DNA of 64,000 nt from Cellulophaga algicola DSM 14237 (GTDB lineage: Bacteria > Bacteroidota > Bacteroidia > Flavobacteriales > Flavobacteriaceae): assembly GCF_000186265.1 (NCBI RefSeq), contig NC_014934.1, positions 2,480,001-2,544,000 of the forward strand, written 5' to 3'. Position 1 is the stretch's first letter. Every line of letters begins with the position of its first letter. The notes under the pieces are model-generated. The model was not told the origin of the DNA and searched no databases. It was given only the letters and a program-made list of their open reading frames with translations. Shown in pieces: positions 55,193-59,784 of this stretch. A program made the translations under genes and the position numbers.

Positions 55193-57124
55193 ATGAGTAA
55201 CGATAACGAATTTGGAAGTATTTCCTTTGATTTGCCCAAAAATCAAAGTAATGTAATAAAAGTCATCGGGGTAGGTGGTGGCGGAAGCAATGCAATTAAC
55301 CACATGTATTTGGCGGGAATAAATGGCGTTGATTTCATTATCTGTAATACAGATTCCCAAGCGCTTGATAATAGTACAGTACCGAATAAAATTCAATTAG
55401 GGGTTTCCTTAACTGAAGGTCTTGGTGCTGGCGCAAACCCAGAAGTGGGAGAGCAGTCTGCTATTGAGAGTATGGAAGAAATAAAAAATATGTTGGGTAC
55501 CAACACTAAAATGGTTTTCATTACTGCAGGAATGGGCGGTGGTACTGGAACAGGTGCGGCACCAATGATAGCAAAACAAGCTAGGGAACTGGATATCCTT
55601 ACGGTTGGTATTGTTACAATTCCTTTTCAGTTTGAAGGTCAAATGAGAACCAAGCAAGCGCAAGCAGGGATTGAAAAATTACGTAATAATGTAGATTCTC
55701 TTATCGTTATAAATAATAATAAATTAAGAGAGGTTTACGGAAACTTAGGCTTCAAGGCAGGTTTCTCTAAAGCAGATGAAGTTTTAGCTACAGCTGCTAG
55801 AGGTATTGCAGAGGTTATAACACATCACTATACGCAAAATATTGATTTACGTGATGCTAAAACTGTACTTTCTAATAGTGGTACAGCAATCATGGGGTCT
55901 TCAACTTCATCAGGTTCAAATAGAGCAAATGAAGCTATAATGAGTGCCTTAGATTCACCATTGTTAAATGATAATAAAATCTCTGGAGCTAAGAATGTAT
56001 TATTATTAATTGTTTCCGGTACTAAAGAAATCACTATTGACGAAATAGGAGAGATCAACGATCATATACAAAATGAAGCGGGTCATAGCGCAAACATCAT
56101 TATGGGTGTTGGTGAAGACGAAACACTGGGGGAAGCAATTGCTGTAACCGTGATCGCTACGGGTTTTAATATAGACCAACAGGATACTATTGTAAATACA
56201 GAATCTAAAAAAATAATCCATACACTTGAAGATAGTCAAAAGGCAGAACAATTGTTAATGGGTTCAGAGAATGTAGTTTTTCAGTTGGTCGAAGAAGAAG
56301 AGGAAAAAGTAAAAGAAGAGCCTAAAGTAGTAAAGCATGTTTTAAAAGAAGATAAGCCAGAGATGGATTTGATTCCGACTTCAAGCTATATTAAGAATTT
56401 TAATGTATTCTATGATGAAGTAATTGCTGAAAATGTAGGTGATGATTTTATTATAGTAGATTCAAAAGCTAAGATTGATGATTTTGAGGTTATTGCTCCA
56501 ATTACTGTTTCTTCAACAAAAATAGAAGATGATCAATTTCTATTTAGTTTTGATGGCTCTGAGGTAGAAAAAACTAAAGAAAAGAAGAGAGAGAACGTTG
56601 TTCTGTTTTCTTTGGATGATGAAGTTAAAGATATGGATGTAAAAGATCCTATTGAAGTCATTCCGGTAGTAGAATATAATAAAGAAGGTGAAAAACGCTA
56701 TAGTCTTGATGATTATATGGAGCTAGAGGGGAAACTTAATGAAGCTAAGTCTAAAGCAGAAAAAGTAGCACCTAAGGTTATAGAAGAAGAAATGCGTTTT
56801 GAGCAAAAAACAGTTGAAAAGGAAACTAAGCATGTAGAAGAAGCTGCTCATGTAGATCCTATGGATATGCCTTTAGAAGAGCTTCTTAGAAGTAGGTCTG
56901 AAGAAAGAAAGCGTAAATTAAAAGACTTCAATTATAAATTTCAAAACAATAATGCTAAGCATATTGATGAAATAGAAAAGCACCCAGCGTACAAACGTCA
57001 GGGAGTTCATTTAAATGAAGTGAATAGAGAAAACAAAATATCTAGAACATCATTAAGTGAAGATAGTAATGATGATATTCAAATAAGAACAAACAATTCT
57101 TTTTTACATGATAATGTAGATTAA
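55193..57124 (+). CDS. ftsZ: Cell division protein FtsZ with long C-terminal tail
   Basis: FtsZ is the tubulin-like GTPase of the division ring. The GTPase domain (about 1-330) carries GVGGGGSNAINHM, the tubulin signature GGGTGTG at 115-121, and the synergy-loop region. A tail of about 310 residues follows, rich in Glu/Lys/Asp with no fold recognised. The final NNSFLHDNVD is the short conserved end I recall in flavobacterial FtsZ, in place of the DIPAFLR-type peptide of E. coli. At 643 residues it is far longer than the 383 of E. coli. A terminator follows. Confidence 0.97.
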   Translation: MSNDNEFGSISFDLPKNQSNVIKVIGVGGGGSNAINHMYLAGINGVDFIICNTDSQALDNSTVPNKIQLGVSLTEGLGAGANPEVGEQSAIESMEEIKNMLGTNTKMVFITAGMGGGTGTGAAPMIAKQARELDILTVGIVTIPFQFEGQMRTKQAQAGIEKLRNNVDSLIVINNNKLREVYGNLGFKAGFSKADEVLATAARGIAEVITHHYTQNIDLRDAKTVLSNSGTAIMGSSTSSGSNRANEAIMSALDSPLLNDNKISGAKNVLLLIVSGTKEITIDEIGEINDHIQNEAGHSANIIMGVGEDETLGEAIAVTVIATGFNIDQQDTIVNTESKKIIHTLEDSQKAEQLLMGSENVVFQLVEEEEEKVKEEPKVVKHVLKEDKPEMDLIPTSSYIKNFNVFYDEVIAENVGDDFIIVDSKAKIDDFEVIAPITVSSTKIEDDQFLFSFDGSEVEKTKEKKRENVVLFSLDDEVKDMDVKDPIEVIPVVEYNKEGEKRYSLDDYMELEGKLNEAKSKAEKVAPKVIEEEMRFEQKTVEKETKHVEEAAHVDPMDMPLEELLRSRSEERKRKLKDFNYKFQNNNAKHIDEIEKHPAYKRQGVHLNEVNRENKISRTSLSEDSNDDIQIRTNNSFLHDNVD

Positions 57125-57147
57125 CTTTTGTTTTTTAAGAATTGTAT

Positions 57148-57188
57148 AAACCCAGAAATACACAGTATTTTTGGGTTTATTTTTTTTA
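57148..57188 (+). terminator. Terminator of the dcw cluster
   Basis: AAACCCAGAAATA pairs with TATTTTTGGGTTT (one mismatch) around CACAG, followed by a T tract. The T tract merges with TATCTTCG (57187-57194), a possible -7 element of the next gene. Confidence 0.88.
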
Positions 57189-57214
57189 TCTTCGTGCCGC
57201 TAAAATAAAATGTT

Positions 57215-57664
57215 ATGAGCTTACAGGATCAGGTAATGACCGAGATTAAAACAGCGATGAAAGCTAAAGATAAAGTAGCTTTAGAATCGTTAAGAGCAAT
57301 TAAATCTGCGTTATTATTGATGCAAACAGAAATTGGTTCGGGAGAAGCTATTTCAGAAGATGCAGAAATTCAGTTAGTTCAGAAATTAGTAAAGCAACGT
57401 AGGGATAGTGCTGCTATTTTCAATGAACAAGGAAGAGAAGATTTGGCTGCCCCAGAATTGGCTCAAGTAGCTATTATAGAAAAGTTCTTACCAGAGCAGT
57501 TAACTGAAGAAGAGATAGAAAAAGTAGTATTACAGACTATTGAAGCTACTGGTGCAGAGGGTATGAAAGATATGGGTAAAGTTATGGGTATGGTTTCCAA
57601 AGCGCTTGCAGGTCAAGCAGACGGTAAAACTATTTCTATGATCGTAAAAAAGAAATTAGCATAG
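57215..57664 (+). CDS. GatB/YqeY domain protein
   Basis: A 149-residue protein of the YqeY family: SLQDQVMTEIKTAMKAKDK, ALRAIKSAL-like ESLRAIKSALLLMQTE, VQKLVKQRRDSA and the C-terminal GMVSKALAGQADGKTI. The domain resembles the tRNA-binding tail of the amidotransferase subunit GatB, but the function of free YqeY is unproven. It ends 15 bp before the tRNA-derived repeat array. Confidence 0.93.
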   Translation: MSLQDQVMTEIKTAMKAKDKVALESLRAIKSALLLMQTEIGSGEAISEDAEIQLVQKLVKQRRDSAAIFNEQGREDLAAPELAQVAIIEKFLPEQLTEEEIEKVVLQTIEATGAEGMKDMGKVMGMVSKALAGQADGKTISMIVKKKLA

Positions 57665-57679
57665 TAAGAAAATAATAAC

Positions 57680-57701
57680 GGCTGCGTAGTTCAACTGGAT
57701 A
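57680..57701 (+). repeat. tRNA-Arg 5'-half copy 1 (orphan)
   Basis: The 22 bases from GGCTGCGTAG to CTGGATA are identical to the first 22 nt of the intact tRNA-Arg at 58574. They are preceded by AAAATAATAAC as at each other copy, and are followed by the palindrome instead of the rest of the tRNA. Other copies start at 57978, 58127 and 58425. Confidence 0.9.
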
Positions 57702-57721
57702 CCTGCCTGCCGGCAGGCAGG
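57702..57721 (+). repeat. Perfect 20-bp GC-rich palindrome at the tRNA junction
   Basis: CCTGCCTGCC is followed directly by its reverse complement GGCAGGCAGG. An identical copy is at 58149-58168 and variants with two changes are at 58000-58019 and 58447-58466. It is inserted after tRNA position 22. The next eight bases (GAATATCA) are the same as the tRNA bases that follow position 22 in the intact gene. Confidence 0.9.
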
Positions 57722-57738
57722 GAATATCAAGTGTAGGT

Positions 57739-57987
57739 ATGAAGTACTATGTTTATGTGTTAGAAAGTGAGAAAGATCAAAGATGGTATAAAGGACATAC
57801 TGTAGATATAGATAAGCGAATTAAAGAACATAATTCAGGAAAAACTAAATCAACCAAAGGGTTTATTCCTTGGAGATTGGTTTGTTTTGAAGTATTTGAA
57901 ACAAGGGAAGAGGCTATACTAAGAGAAAAATATTTCAAAACTGGAAGCGGTAGAGAATTTTTAAAGAAAATAATAACGGCTGCGTAG
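57739..57987 (+). CDS. GIY-YIG family nuclease, copy 1
   Basis: An 82-residue single-domain GIY-YIG (URI-like) nuclease. It has YYVYVL and WYKGHT in place of the GIY and YIG strands, the catalytic-site DKRIKEHNSGKTKSTKG and the acidic REEAILREKYFK. The last residues ITAA and the TAG stop (57976-57987) are read from the AAC/GGCTGCGTAG of the next tRNA 5'-half copy. It has no DNA-recognition tail beyond the catalytic domain. It is probably the enzyme of the repeat element. It differs from copy 2 at two residues. Confidence 0.85.
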   Translation: MKYYVYVLESEKDQRWYKGHTVDIDKRIKEHNSGKTKSTKGFIPWRLVCFEVFETREEAILREKYFKTGSGREFLKKIITAA

Positions 57988-58126
57988 TTCAACTGGATAC
58001 CCGCCTACCGGCAGGCAGGGAATACCAAGTATAGGTATGAAGTACTATGTATATGTTAAAAAGTGGTAAAGAATAAAATATTTCAAAACCGGAAATGGCA
58101 GAGAATTTTTAAAAAAAAATAATAAC

Positions 58127-58573
58127 GGCTGCGTAGTTCAACTGGATACCTGCCTGCCGGCAGGCAGGGAATATCAAGTGTAGGTATGAAGTACTATGTT
58201 TATGTGTTAGAAAGTAAGAAAGATCAAAGATGGTATAAAGGACATACTGTAGATATAGATAAGCGAATTAAAGAACATAATTCAGGAAAAACTAAATCAA
58301 CCAAAGGGTTTATTCCTTGGAGATTGGTTTATTTTGAAGTATTTGAAACAAGGGAAGAGGCTATACTAAGAGAAAAATATTTCAAAACTGGAAGCGGTAG
58401 AGAATTTTTAAAGAAAATAATAACGGCTGCGTAGTTCAACTGGATACCCGCCTACCGGCAGGCAGGGAATACCAAGTATAGGTATGAAGTACTATGTATA
58501 TGTTAAAAAGTGGTAAAGAATAAAATATTTCAAAACCGGAAATGGCAGAGAATTTTTAAAAAAAAATAATAAC
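58127..58573 (+). mobile_element. Repeat dimer 2: full GIY-YIG unit plus deleted unit
   Basis: Same structure and exact length (447 bp) as dimer 1: full unit 58127-58424, short unit 58425-58573. The differences from dimer 1 are few (for example GTGAGAAA to GTAAGAAA in the reading frame). Near identity and head-to-tail order show a recent tandem duplication of the dimer. The unit is followed directly by the complete tRNA-Arg. Confidence 0.85.
58186..58434 (+). CDS. GIY-YIG family nuclease, copy 2
   Basis: 82 residues, identical to copy 1 except Glu11 to Lys (ESKKDQ) and Cys to Tyr in LVYFEVFE. The reading frame is intact and ends in the next tRNA 5'-half copy (stop TAG at 58432-58434). Two intact copies beside two deleted ones suggest that the protein is under some selection, or that the duplication is very recent. 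Confidence 0.85.
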   Translation: MKYYVYVLESKKDQRWYKGHTVDIDKRIKEHNSGKTKSTKGFIPWRLVYFEVFETREEAILREKYFKTGSGREFLKKIITAA

Positions 58574-58647
58574 GGCTGCGTAGTTCAACTGGATAGAATA
58601 TCAGATTTCGGCTCTGAGGGTTGGGGGTTCGAATCCCTTCGCGGTCA
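58574..58647 (+). tRNA. tRNA-Arg (anticodon TCG)
   Basis: A cloverleaf folds fully. The acceptor is GGCTGCG/CGCGGTC (two wobble pairs) and the D stem GTTC/GAAT (one wobble) with GG in the loop. The anticodon stem TCAGA/TCTGA is perfect with loop TTTCGGC (anticodon 58608-58610), the variable loop has 5 nt, and the T arm is GGGGG-TTCGAAT-CCCTT. The discriminator A follows; CCA is not encoded. The number of wobble pairs is higher than usual, so mild decay or reduced use is possible. It is the only complete copy in the array, which has four upstream 5' halves. Confidence 0.88.
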
Positions 58648-58656
58648 CGAATAAAT

Positions 58657-58714
58657 AAAAAGTCTCACAAAATATACAAGCTTGCTTGCCTATATTTTGT
58701 GAGACTTTTTATTT
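58657..58714 (+). terminator. Perfect 20-bp hairpin terminator after tRNA-Arg
   Basis: AAAAAGTCTCACAAAATATA (58657-58676) pairs with its exact reverse complement at 58691-58710 across a 14-nt loop, ten bases after the tRNA. The T-rich end supports termination. The downstream arm belongs to the first of three long repeats. Confidence 0.8.
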
Positions 58715-58960
58715 TCAAAGCGGAGCTTTAAGGGATCAACGCAGTTCATCCCTTATTCGTGAAAATGTTGAATATAGTTTTAATGCTTGCTTGGGTATAT
58801 TTTGTGAGACTTTTTATTTTCAAAGCGGAGCTTTAAGGGAGCAACGCAGTTCATCCCTAATTCGTTTTTCTTGAATTATCGATTTTTGTTTTGCGTATAT
58901 ATTTACGGAACTCGCTATTTTCAAAGCGGAGTTTAAGGGATTAACGGAGTTCAATCTTAA
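58681..58960 (+). repeat. Three decaying copies of an 80-bp repeat
   Basis: Copy 1 (58681-58760) and copy 2 (58785-58865) share GCTTGCTTG, TATATTTTGTGAGACTTTTT, CAAAGCGGAGCTTTAAGGG and CAACGCAGTTCATCCCT. Copy 3 (58893-58960) retains only parts (CAAAGCGGAG, TTAAGGGATTAACGGAGTTCA). Each copy can form AAAGC/GCTTT and AAGGGAT/ATCCCTT hairpins. They fill most of the 384-bp gap between the tRNA and the next gene. A short reading frame across copies 1 and 2 is only repeat sequence. Confidence 0.8.
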
Positions 58961-58970
58961 AAGACCTTTT

Positions 58971-58999
58971 TTGGGGTAAGATAAATATTAGTATCTTGA
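58971..58999 (+). promoter_or_regulatory. Candidate promoter of the secreted-protein gene
   Basis: TTG at 58971-58973 and TATCTTGA at 58992-58999 (two mismatches) are 18 bp apart. Confidence 0.4.
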
Positions 59000-59031
59000 A
59001 TTCTTTAAAATGAAAACACGAAATAAAATAT

Positions 59032-59784
59032 ATGATTAAACGAGCATATTTTTTCAAGGGTATTATAAAACGTTTTGTTATACTTTTAGTTTTCTTTTAT
59101 TCTGGATTTGTTGCTTCTCAAGAAATAACTCATTTAGAGACGCTACTACATCAGCTAGATTTAGATTTGTCTGTATGTAAAACGGATCTAGTGGTAGCTA
59201 AAGTACAGCCTAATAATCCGGAAGAAACGATTGTTGTTATTCCAGAAATTGTCCAAGAAGAGGAAGGTTATTTTGAGCTTAATAGCCATATTCTAATTAT
59301 AGAAACTAATACAGGGAAAATAAAATCCAGATATTTTGAAGGTTCATTAACGAACGAGTGGTATTCAGATGCCGTTAGATTGGCGGAAATAAAGATTGAT
59401 ACGGCTCCTTATGATATTTCAGATACCCGAAACGCTTTTGGTATTCGGGTTTATTATTACAATAACTCACATCCGAATCCGTATAGTCATGAAACAATTT
59501 CGTTATTTTTTGATGAAAATAATACCCTAAAACAGGTTTTGAAAAATTTTGAAATGATGAGCTATGGGGGCGAAGTGGACTCAGAATGCGAAGCAGACCT
59601 AAGTGGCGTTGAAAAAGTGTTAATCCTTAAGGAAACAAAAACAAATGGCTATTTTGATATTTTAGTAAAAAGCACTGTGAGAACAACAACTAGAAAAGAA
59701 GCTGCAAACGGTGATTGCGTTGAAGAAGAAAAGATTACAAATCAAGATCAAGTATTGACGTTTGAAAACGGTAAATACCAATAA
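59032..59784 (+). CDS. Secreted protein of unknown function
   Basis: A 250-residue protein with a long basic signal peptide (FVILLVFFYSGFVASQ, cleaved near residue 30). The mature part is mostly beta-rich with several acidic patches and four cysteines (CKTD, SECEAD, GDCVEE). I do not recognise the family. It is divergent in content from its neighbours and faces a permease gene that ends 8 bp away on the other strand. Confidence 0.65.
   Translation: MIKRAYFFKGIIKRFVILLVFFYSGFVASQEITHLETLLHQLDLDLSVCKTDLVVAKVQPNNPEETIVVIPEIVQEEEGYFELNSHILIIETNTGKIKSRYFEGSLTNEWYSDAVRLAEIKIDTAPYDISDTRNAFGIRVYYYNNSHPNPYSHETISLFFDENNTLKQVLKNFEMMSYGGEVDSECEADLSGVEKVLILKETKTNGYFDILVKSTVRTTTRKEAANGDCVEEEKITNQDQVLTFENGKYQ

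Follow-up and report, generated by a model that had tools for sequence, protein, structure and literature searches.

The tRNA-Arg array of Cellulophaga algicola DSM 14237 belongs to a large family of GIY-YIG nuclease units that lie beside tRNA genes. On balance, we favour the view that these units form a widespread family of minimal mobile elements, each specific to a tRNA gene, which would spread in a homing-like manner through putative cleavage of their targets. From sequence alone we regard as established the architecture of the units, their association with tRNA genes and its strand, the isotype-specific clades, patchy occupancy, purifying selection and array growth by duplication; we infer cleavage of the tRNA gene, the route of repair and the role of the palindrome.

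The array lies in the window (the whole 64,000-nucleotide stretch of DNA that was analysed), beside a gene whose product we take to be YqeY-like, of the GatB/YqeY type (Table 1). The 22-mer GGCTGCGTAGTTCAACTGGATA, the start of tRNA-Arg(TCG), recurs exactly at the five tRNA starts where the initial annotation had placed it, and ARAGORN and Rfam agree with its claim that only the last copy is complete. A 33-mer, made up of AAAATAATAAC and the 22-mer, is found at each of the five. Units run in the order tRNA nt 1-22, 20-bp palindrome, tRNA nt 23-30 (GAATATCA), short linker, GIY-YIG frame, AAAATAATAAC and next tRNA copy; since nt 23-30 resume after the palindrome, the partial tRNA runs past nt 22 and the palindrome lies inside it. 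Direct repeats of part of the tRNA are present at both ends of the element. The description of the units as a palindrome with a GIY-YIG frame or its deleted remnant was also correct, with PF01541 matching two ORFs and most of the frame gone from units 2 and 4.

Table 1. Features of the tRNA-Arg array (positions in the window)
Feature	Position	Strand	Remarks
yqeY-like gene (presumed GatB/YqeY-type protein)	57215..57664	+	conserved left neighbour, site marker
Unit 1, 298 nt, intact ORF	57680..57977	+	296/298 identical to unit 3
tRNA-Arg 5' remnant, nt 1-22	57680..57701	+	further copies at 57978, 58127, 58425
Perfect 20-bp palindrome between tRNA nt 22 and 23	57702..57721	.	
tRNA nt 23-30, continuing the partial tRNA	57722..57729	+	
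GIY-YIG ORF 1	57739..57987	+	stop TAG is nt 8-10 of next tRNA copy
Unit 2, 149 nt, ORF internally deleted	57978..58126	+	imperfect palindrome 58000-58019; identical to unit 4
Unit 3, 298 nt, intact ORF	58127..58424	+	palindrome 58149-58168
GIY-YIG ORF 2	58186..58434	+	stop TAG is nt 8-10 of next tRNA copy
Unit 4, 149 nt, deleted	58425..58573	+	imperfect palindrome 58447-58466
Intact single-copy tRNA-Arg(TCG)	58574..58648	+	ARAGORN; Rfam tRNA 59 bits

Compared with the whole 4,888,353-bp genome, the tRNA-Arg gives one full match and only the four 22-nt halves (E ≤ 0.001), which excludes an artefact or a chance origin of the halves and makes tRNA-Arg(TCG) a single-copy gene. Units 1 and 2 together are identical to units 3 and 4 at 445 of 447 positions, from which we conclude that a 447-bp dimer was duplicated at least once as the array grew, rather than four units being inserted separately; this duplication is recent. 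Folded as single-stranded DNA, the remnant of unit 1 beats most shuffles (z -2.17; 6 of 200 shuffles as good), and the imperfect palindrome variant of units 2 and 4 does no better than shuffles (z 0.07). A group I or II intron was rejected, as the tRNA is contiguous and Rfam reports no intron family at 57000-59100, and so was an integrase island, given that those ORFs between the tRNA copies that match any family are GIY-YIG and none is of integrase length. On the 3' side of the tRNA, positions 58657-58960 hold two repeats of about 104 nt (86% alike) and a partial third, with long hairpins; similar sequence also follows the tRNA in several relatives.

The two window ORFs match PF01541 at 60.7 and 61.9 bits (cut-off 22.6; E 1.7e-16 and 7.2e-17). 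GIY-YIG is the sole Pfam family found in them, with no HUH tyrosine transposase, and NCBIfam gave no match to the window protein. Residues Y17, G19, R27, H31 and E63 are invariant in both alignments, and Y6 is invariant in one and at least 90% conserved in the other; the catalytic-type residues are thus conserved. The 78 residues make up one GIY-YIG domain (model mean pLDDT 95), and the model, in which they fold as a single domain, predicts no separate DNA-binding region. SegB-like free-standing homing endonucleases typically have such a region beside the GIY-YIG domain. The best match by sequence and by fold is to the UPF0213 proteins (1zg2, 1ywl), whose solved members are described as hypothetical proteins; the nearest is BH0048 (E 1.1e-13 by sequence), and the other fold neighbours are SLX1 and then, weakly, the catalytic domain of I-TevI. 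Between the window nuclease and that of a related genome (G010), dN is 0.046 and dS 0.397 (dN/dS about 0.12), and as judged from these sequences the GIY-YIG frame is under purifying selection.

Similar genes are common. A profile of 14 proteins, mostly picked for tRNA adjacency and therefore favouring tRNA-adjacent matches, hit 139 of 199 genomes of the host family at E ≤ 1e-8 and 153 of 295 genomes of the class at E ≤ 1e-14. Leaving aside those of the window, the family matches listed fall into 108 clusters from 64 genomes. Among these, a tRNA lies within 500 bp of 92 clusters and within 150 bp of 82, and the nearest tRNA is on the strand of the ORF in 92 of 92. There is no tRNA call at the other 16, nine of which are not within 250 bp of a contig end. 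In the class search, 23 of 27 new loci (among 30 matches listed) lie by a tRNA, the nearest one on the same strand. A search with the window protein alone led to the named loci, 40 of 52 of which lie by a tRNA, the nearest always on the same strand, a count that omits five of 57 loci (L221, L239-L242); among all 57, a tRNA or tmRNA is within 500 bp of 43. Their hosts include Flavobacterium, Algoriphagus, Bacteroidales, Ignavibacteria and candidate phyla, and many are represented by metagenome assemblies. tRNA-Arg is the neighbour of each of the first 26 named matches in the list, and across the loci the occupied tRNAs include Arg, Val, Asn, Met, Leu, His, Ala, Pro, Asp, Phe, Ser and others. 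A sister GIY-YIG family served as the control, with 1 of 30 and 0 of 43 loci tRNA-adjacent (the latter omits L345, the window genome's sister gene, already counted as L273).

Rfam, run on 18 loci of clusters without a tRNA call, found as other structured RNAs only two known tmRNAs, besides one tRNA, at L084, on the strand of its ORF. A tmRNA is the neighbour in two loci, and GIY-YIG genes stand near it at L223:2358-2743 (Parcubacteria) and L028:685-1084 (the same as Salinimicrobium catena L230). In the phage and plasmid collections the window protein found distant matches only, in 4 and 3 records (six of the seven from Listeria). The initial annotation had stated that its reading would fail if the unit occurred only here and had random flanks elsewhere; the 92 of 108 clusters beside a co-oriented tRNA show otherwise, and the minimal unit that it described, a nuclease gene with no integrase on a partial tRNA that leaves the intact tRNA in place, recurs widely.

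Two layouts are seen among the 92 clusters, with the intact tRNA downstream in 48, upstream in 43 and in between in one. Downstream-tRNA clusters typically have a 5' remnant upstream of each ORF, as in the window; in upstream-tRNA clusters a 3' remnant and a copied tRNA terminator often follow the ORF, and no clear remnant was found in the upstream-type His clade and one Asn clade. The proposal of the 5' half and D arm was therefore too narrow to be general, as 43 of 92 clusters have the tRNA upstream, usually with 3' remnants whose palindromes lie in the anticodon or T arm. In the typical unit the intact tRNA stays, but its leader or trailer changes. The stop codon of the ORF lies inside the tRNA gene in 27 of the 48 downstream-type clusters, so translation and tRNA processing may compete there.

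A remnant was found in 94 of 119 units (two in the window), the other 25 having none at the score used. Inserts of at least 10 nt interrupt 63 of the 94 remnants (84 inserts), 31 being without one; 54 of the 84 inserts are at least 60% self-paired, against 111 of 840 shuffled ones, units of one array not being independent in these counts. Inserts in 5' remnants lie in the D arm (59, often exactly after nt 22) or at the acceptor/D junction (11), and those in 3' remnants in the T arm (10), the variable region (3) or the anticodon arm (1); in many more 3' remnants the palindrome replaces the anticodon arm, which the alignment does not score as an insert. Inserts follow tRNA nt 22, 23, 14 and 9, among other positions, and the alignments show every tRNA base retained. 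Palindromes vary between clades and are absent from some remnants. Perfect hairpin arms of at least 8 bp occur in 27 of 67 and 28 of 49 units, compared with 8 of 202 flank segments, 15 of 670 shuffles and 4 of 105 intact tRNAs; this count mixes in terminators, and the insert test is therefore preferred. Tandem arrays of broken tRNAs, about 78-97 nt apart and with no GIY-YIG ORF between them, were seen at L185:983-1330, L114:860-1150 and L096:1741-2080 (oriented-locus coordinates).

Remnants resemble the tRNA of their own host. For 5' remnants (31 units), 184 comparisons were closer to the host's own tRNA than to those of other genomes, 30 equal and 2 worse, and for 3' remnants (23 units) the counts were 139, 21 and 0, although entry to the test required a remnant to be within 4 or 5 mismatches of its own tRNA, a rule that favours this outcome. 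Gene conversion could also explain the match. At tRNA-Val units (L029, L042, L046, L101 and L110), ARAGORN calls of 'tRNA-SeC' or 'tRNA-Stop' are palindrome-bearing remnants, so annotation may list false tRNAs.

The nucleases sort by the amino acid of the tRNA that they adjoin. With ARAGORN 'SeC' and 'Stop' calls ignored in all labels, the label changes 36 times on a FastTree tree of 196 rows, against a shuffled mean of 93.6 and minimum of 89 (200 shuffles); a rerun with 190 rows, after removal of 5 out of 195 that reached 90% identity, also gave 36 changes, against a mean of 93.3 and minimum of 88 (500 shuffles). Well-supported branches number only 28 of 193. Among genomes with several labelled clusters, 25 of 26 have them at different tRNA amino acids, so host relatedness does not explain the pattern.

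Both states of the tRNA-Arg site, with units and without, are seen within the genus and within the family, in a comparison between species and between genera. All 18 genomes of the genus contain the yqeY-like gene, and 14 have a single tRNA start, that is, an empty site (part of the sequence 3' of the site is masked with N in G006 and G016). Of the others, G010 carries one intact and two deleted units here and G016 a single deleted unit; G013 differs in arrangement, with palindrome-bearing pseudo-tRNAs and a GIY-YIG gene 3' of the tRNA. A deleted unit is common to G000, G010 and G016. The YqeY of the nearest empty genome, G005, is 93% identical to that of the window, as are those of G010 and G016. 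In the family (59 genomes with a yqeY match), tRNA-Arg(TCG) lies downstream of yqeY in 29 of 30 loci examined, and 25 of these 29 are empty and four occupied (G000, G035, G036 and G078), as called from the GIY-YIG profile and exact repeats of the tRNA start. The G035 nuclease (L099) falls in a part of the tree apart from the other three occupants, with moderate branch support, so the site has probably been taken more than once; its palindrome differs from those of the window and G036 and sits at the same tRNA position. The recurrence of the units, the occupied and empty sites and the isotype-following clades partly support the putative mobile element or homing system first proposed for the window; its 5' half and D arm do not hold as a general rule.

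Tandem duplication grows arrays, and arrays of broken tRNA copies with no ORF exist (L185, L114, L096), as would be expected if tRNA loci simply duplicate and their spare copies then receive palindromic elements, the GIY-YIG genes being uninvolved passengers. We consider this improbable, as it leaves unexplained the isotype-specific nuclease clades, the strict co-orientation, the purifying selection and the same architecture built at one site by nucleases from two parts of the tree (the window clade and L099). Less credible still is a protein that acts on the tRNA itself, as a toxin or processing factor kept beside the gene of its substrate. Such a protein would account for isotype specificity and co-orientation, and ORF stops inside the tRNA gene (27 of 48 downstream-type clusters) suggest shared transcripts, but the 25 of 29 loci with no such protein at the same tRNA argue against a general need for it. 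In addition, an antitoxin-like second gene is not apparent among the array ORFs, the nearest solved folds of known function are DNA nucleases, and the broken tRNA copies would have no explanation.

The main rival to the homing reading is hairpin-directed transposition, in which the GIY-YIG protein recognises folded palindromes, as RAYTs do REPs, and inserts palindrome and gene into hairpin-forming DNA, hairpin-rich tRNA genes having become targets. The placement of palindromes in tRNA arms with no tRNA base lost fits this, as do the branched-DNA nuclease SLX1 among the structural neighbours and the REPs that often flank the sister GIY-YIG family. The 20-bp palindrome of the window is also found in 6 of 18 genus genomes and is dispersed in the window genome (e.g. 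L006, L007, L010-L017, L020 and L021, at 1501-1520), with no tRNA at the copies in the 12 loci scanned. Sequence around the dispersed copies repeats from one to another, and some of these contexts look like group II introns or IS110-type elements. With up to one mismatch, the palindrome occurs in 4 of 4 genus genomes that have an element or remnant and 2 of 14 that have none, a correlation confounded by relatedness and by copies riding on other repeats. Given also that palindromes vary between clades and are missing from some remnants, and that no target duplication or excised form was seen, we think hairpin-directed transposition unlikely, if less so than the two alternatives above.

Each element has one gene, for a single-domain GIY-YIG nuclease of about 80 residues, as a rule with part of the occupied tRNA gene copied beside it, and one intact copy of the tRNA is left. 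In the homing reading that we prefer, the nuclease of each clade would cut its cognate tRNA gene, or a structure formed by it, at or close to the arm in which the palindrome is later found, and the break would be repaired by recombination with an element-bearing copy. Partial and intact tRNA would then act as two homology arms, so that the element is inserted and the tRNA regenerated; an element that carries its own homology arms would account for tRNA regeneration, host-matching partial copies and one tRNA per nuclease. As for the palindrome, we can only guess that it may mark the junction and keep the partial copy both from working as a tRNA and from being cut again. Arrays may result from repeated cutting and unequal exchange between repeats. 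Several points count against homing. The intact tRNA persists, so that the target is not destroyed as it is in classic homing, and self-cutting would have to be accounted for; isotype specificity would have to arise with no separate DNA-binding domain to explain it; some clusters have no tRNA call, some units no remnant and some remnants no insert; the window array grew by plain duplication; and the window's palindrome is also found away from tRNAs.

We regard SegB as the closest known system and as a precedent for homing. In the parts of the sources consulted, SegB is a free-standing GIY-YIG homing endonuclease in the tRNA cluster of phages T4 and T6 (PMC13096335; PMC2988022), and adjacent tRNA is amplified with the nuclease gene in a nuclease- and recombination-dependent manner (PMC13096335). 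The units resemble it, to that extent, in having a GIY-YIG gene beside tRNA genes and tandem amplification of nuclease and tRNA. The SegB survey, as excerpted, covered phage and archaeal-virus proteins and did not see any isotype preference (PMC13096335). Unlike SegB as described there, the units lie in bacterial chromosomes, form isotype-specific clades, encode a single domain of about 80 residues and have palindrome-bearing partial tRNAs. Like integrative elements with tyrosine recombinases, in the portion consulted of PMC9897764, they lie between a partial and a complete tRNA, which stays functional; unlike those elements, they have no integrase, are only about 0.15-0.4 kb long, duplicate 5' as well as 3' parts and carry palindromes within the partial tRNA copy. 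They also recall the REP/RAYT system, in the consulted part of PMC3733652, in that a nuclease-type gene lies between small palindromes that are also dispersed (here in the window's genome), but the enzyme here is GIY-YIG and there an HUH tyrosine transposase, and the sites here are tRNA genes. The parts are known already; among the matches listed from titles and abstract beginnings of open-licence PMC papers, we found no description of bacterial tRNA- or REP-associated GIY-YIG units or of the combination.

The sister GIY-YIG genes, of about 95 codons (loci L270-L299, L334-L363 and L364-L377, e.g. L371:1400-1900 and L367:1300-2020), are often flanked by hairpins that fit the CGTC REPs as outlined in part of PMC3733652, with a CGTC or TGTC tag, a stem starting AT, a short loop and a CCA-like tail. 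The strict hairpin pattern was defined after viewing the flanks of the family loci and fixed before the class and named loci were searched. Such hairpins lie within 300 bp of 10 of 30 family loci (both sides in 5), 8 of 29 class loci (both sides in 4) and 8 of 14 named loci (both sides in 7), that is, 26 of all 73 (both sides in 16), the named loci having been picked from 33 records at one or two per genus. Named loci with hairpins are from Neisseria, Aeromonas, Photobacterium, Azospirillum, Neorhizobium, one of two Rhizobium and both Shinella; no strict hairpin within 300 bp was found in Sinorhizobium (two), the other Rhizobium, Novosphingobium, Sphingobium and Planktothrix. Within 300 bp there are 20 hairpins in 17,826 bases of family loci, 15 in 17,190 of class loci and 22 in 8,400 of named loci, compared with 5 in 52,601, 3 in 48,518 and 9 in 25,214 beyond 600 bp, a 7- to 14-fold enrichment near the genes. 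The tRNA-type loci have 4 of the same hairpins in 62,954 bases near the gene versus 9 in 181,201 far from it.

For CGTC repeats, the consulted part of PMC3733652 reports that no dedicated transposase was found and that there are few, fortuitous associations only. The sister GIY-YIG family is a candidate enzyme for them, and this link may be a larger discovery than the tRNA elements. A broader and more tentative possibility, which we would not yet back, is that bacteria have, in the small GIY-YIG enzymes of a single domain, a major class of hairpin-directed mobilising nucleases, one branch of which settled on tRNA (perhaps tmRNA) genes, isotype by isotype, with palindrome-marked tRNA fragments, the sister branch being the long-missing enzyme of the CGTC REPs.

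If the homing reading is true, a common selfish element of about 0.3 kb would reside in essential tRNA genes of Bacteroidota and some other phyla, harmless to its host with neither an integrase nor an intron, and some odd tRNA fragments and false tRNA calls would be explained. The units would then be among the smallest site-specific mobile units and a source of natural single-domain nucleases with specificity for tRNA isotypes.
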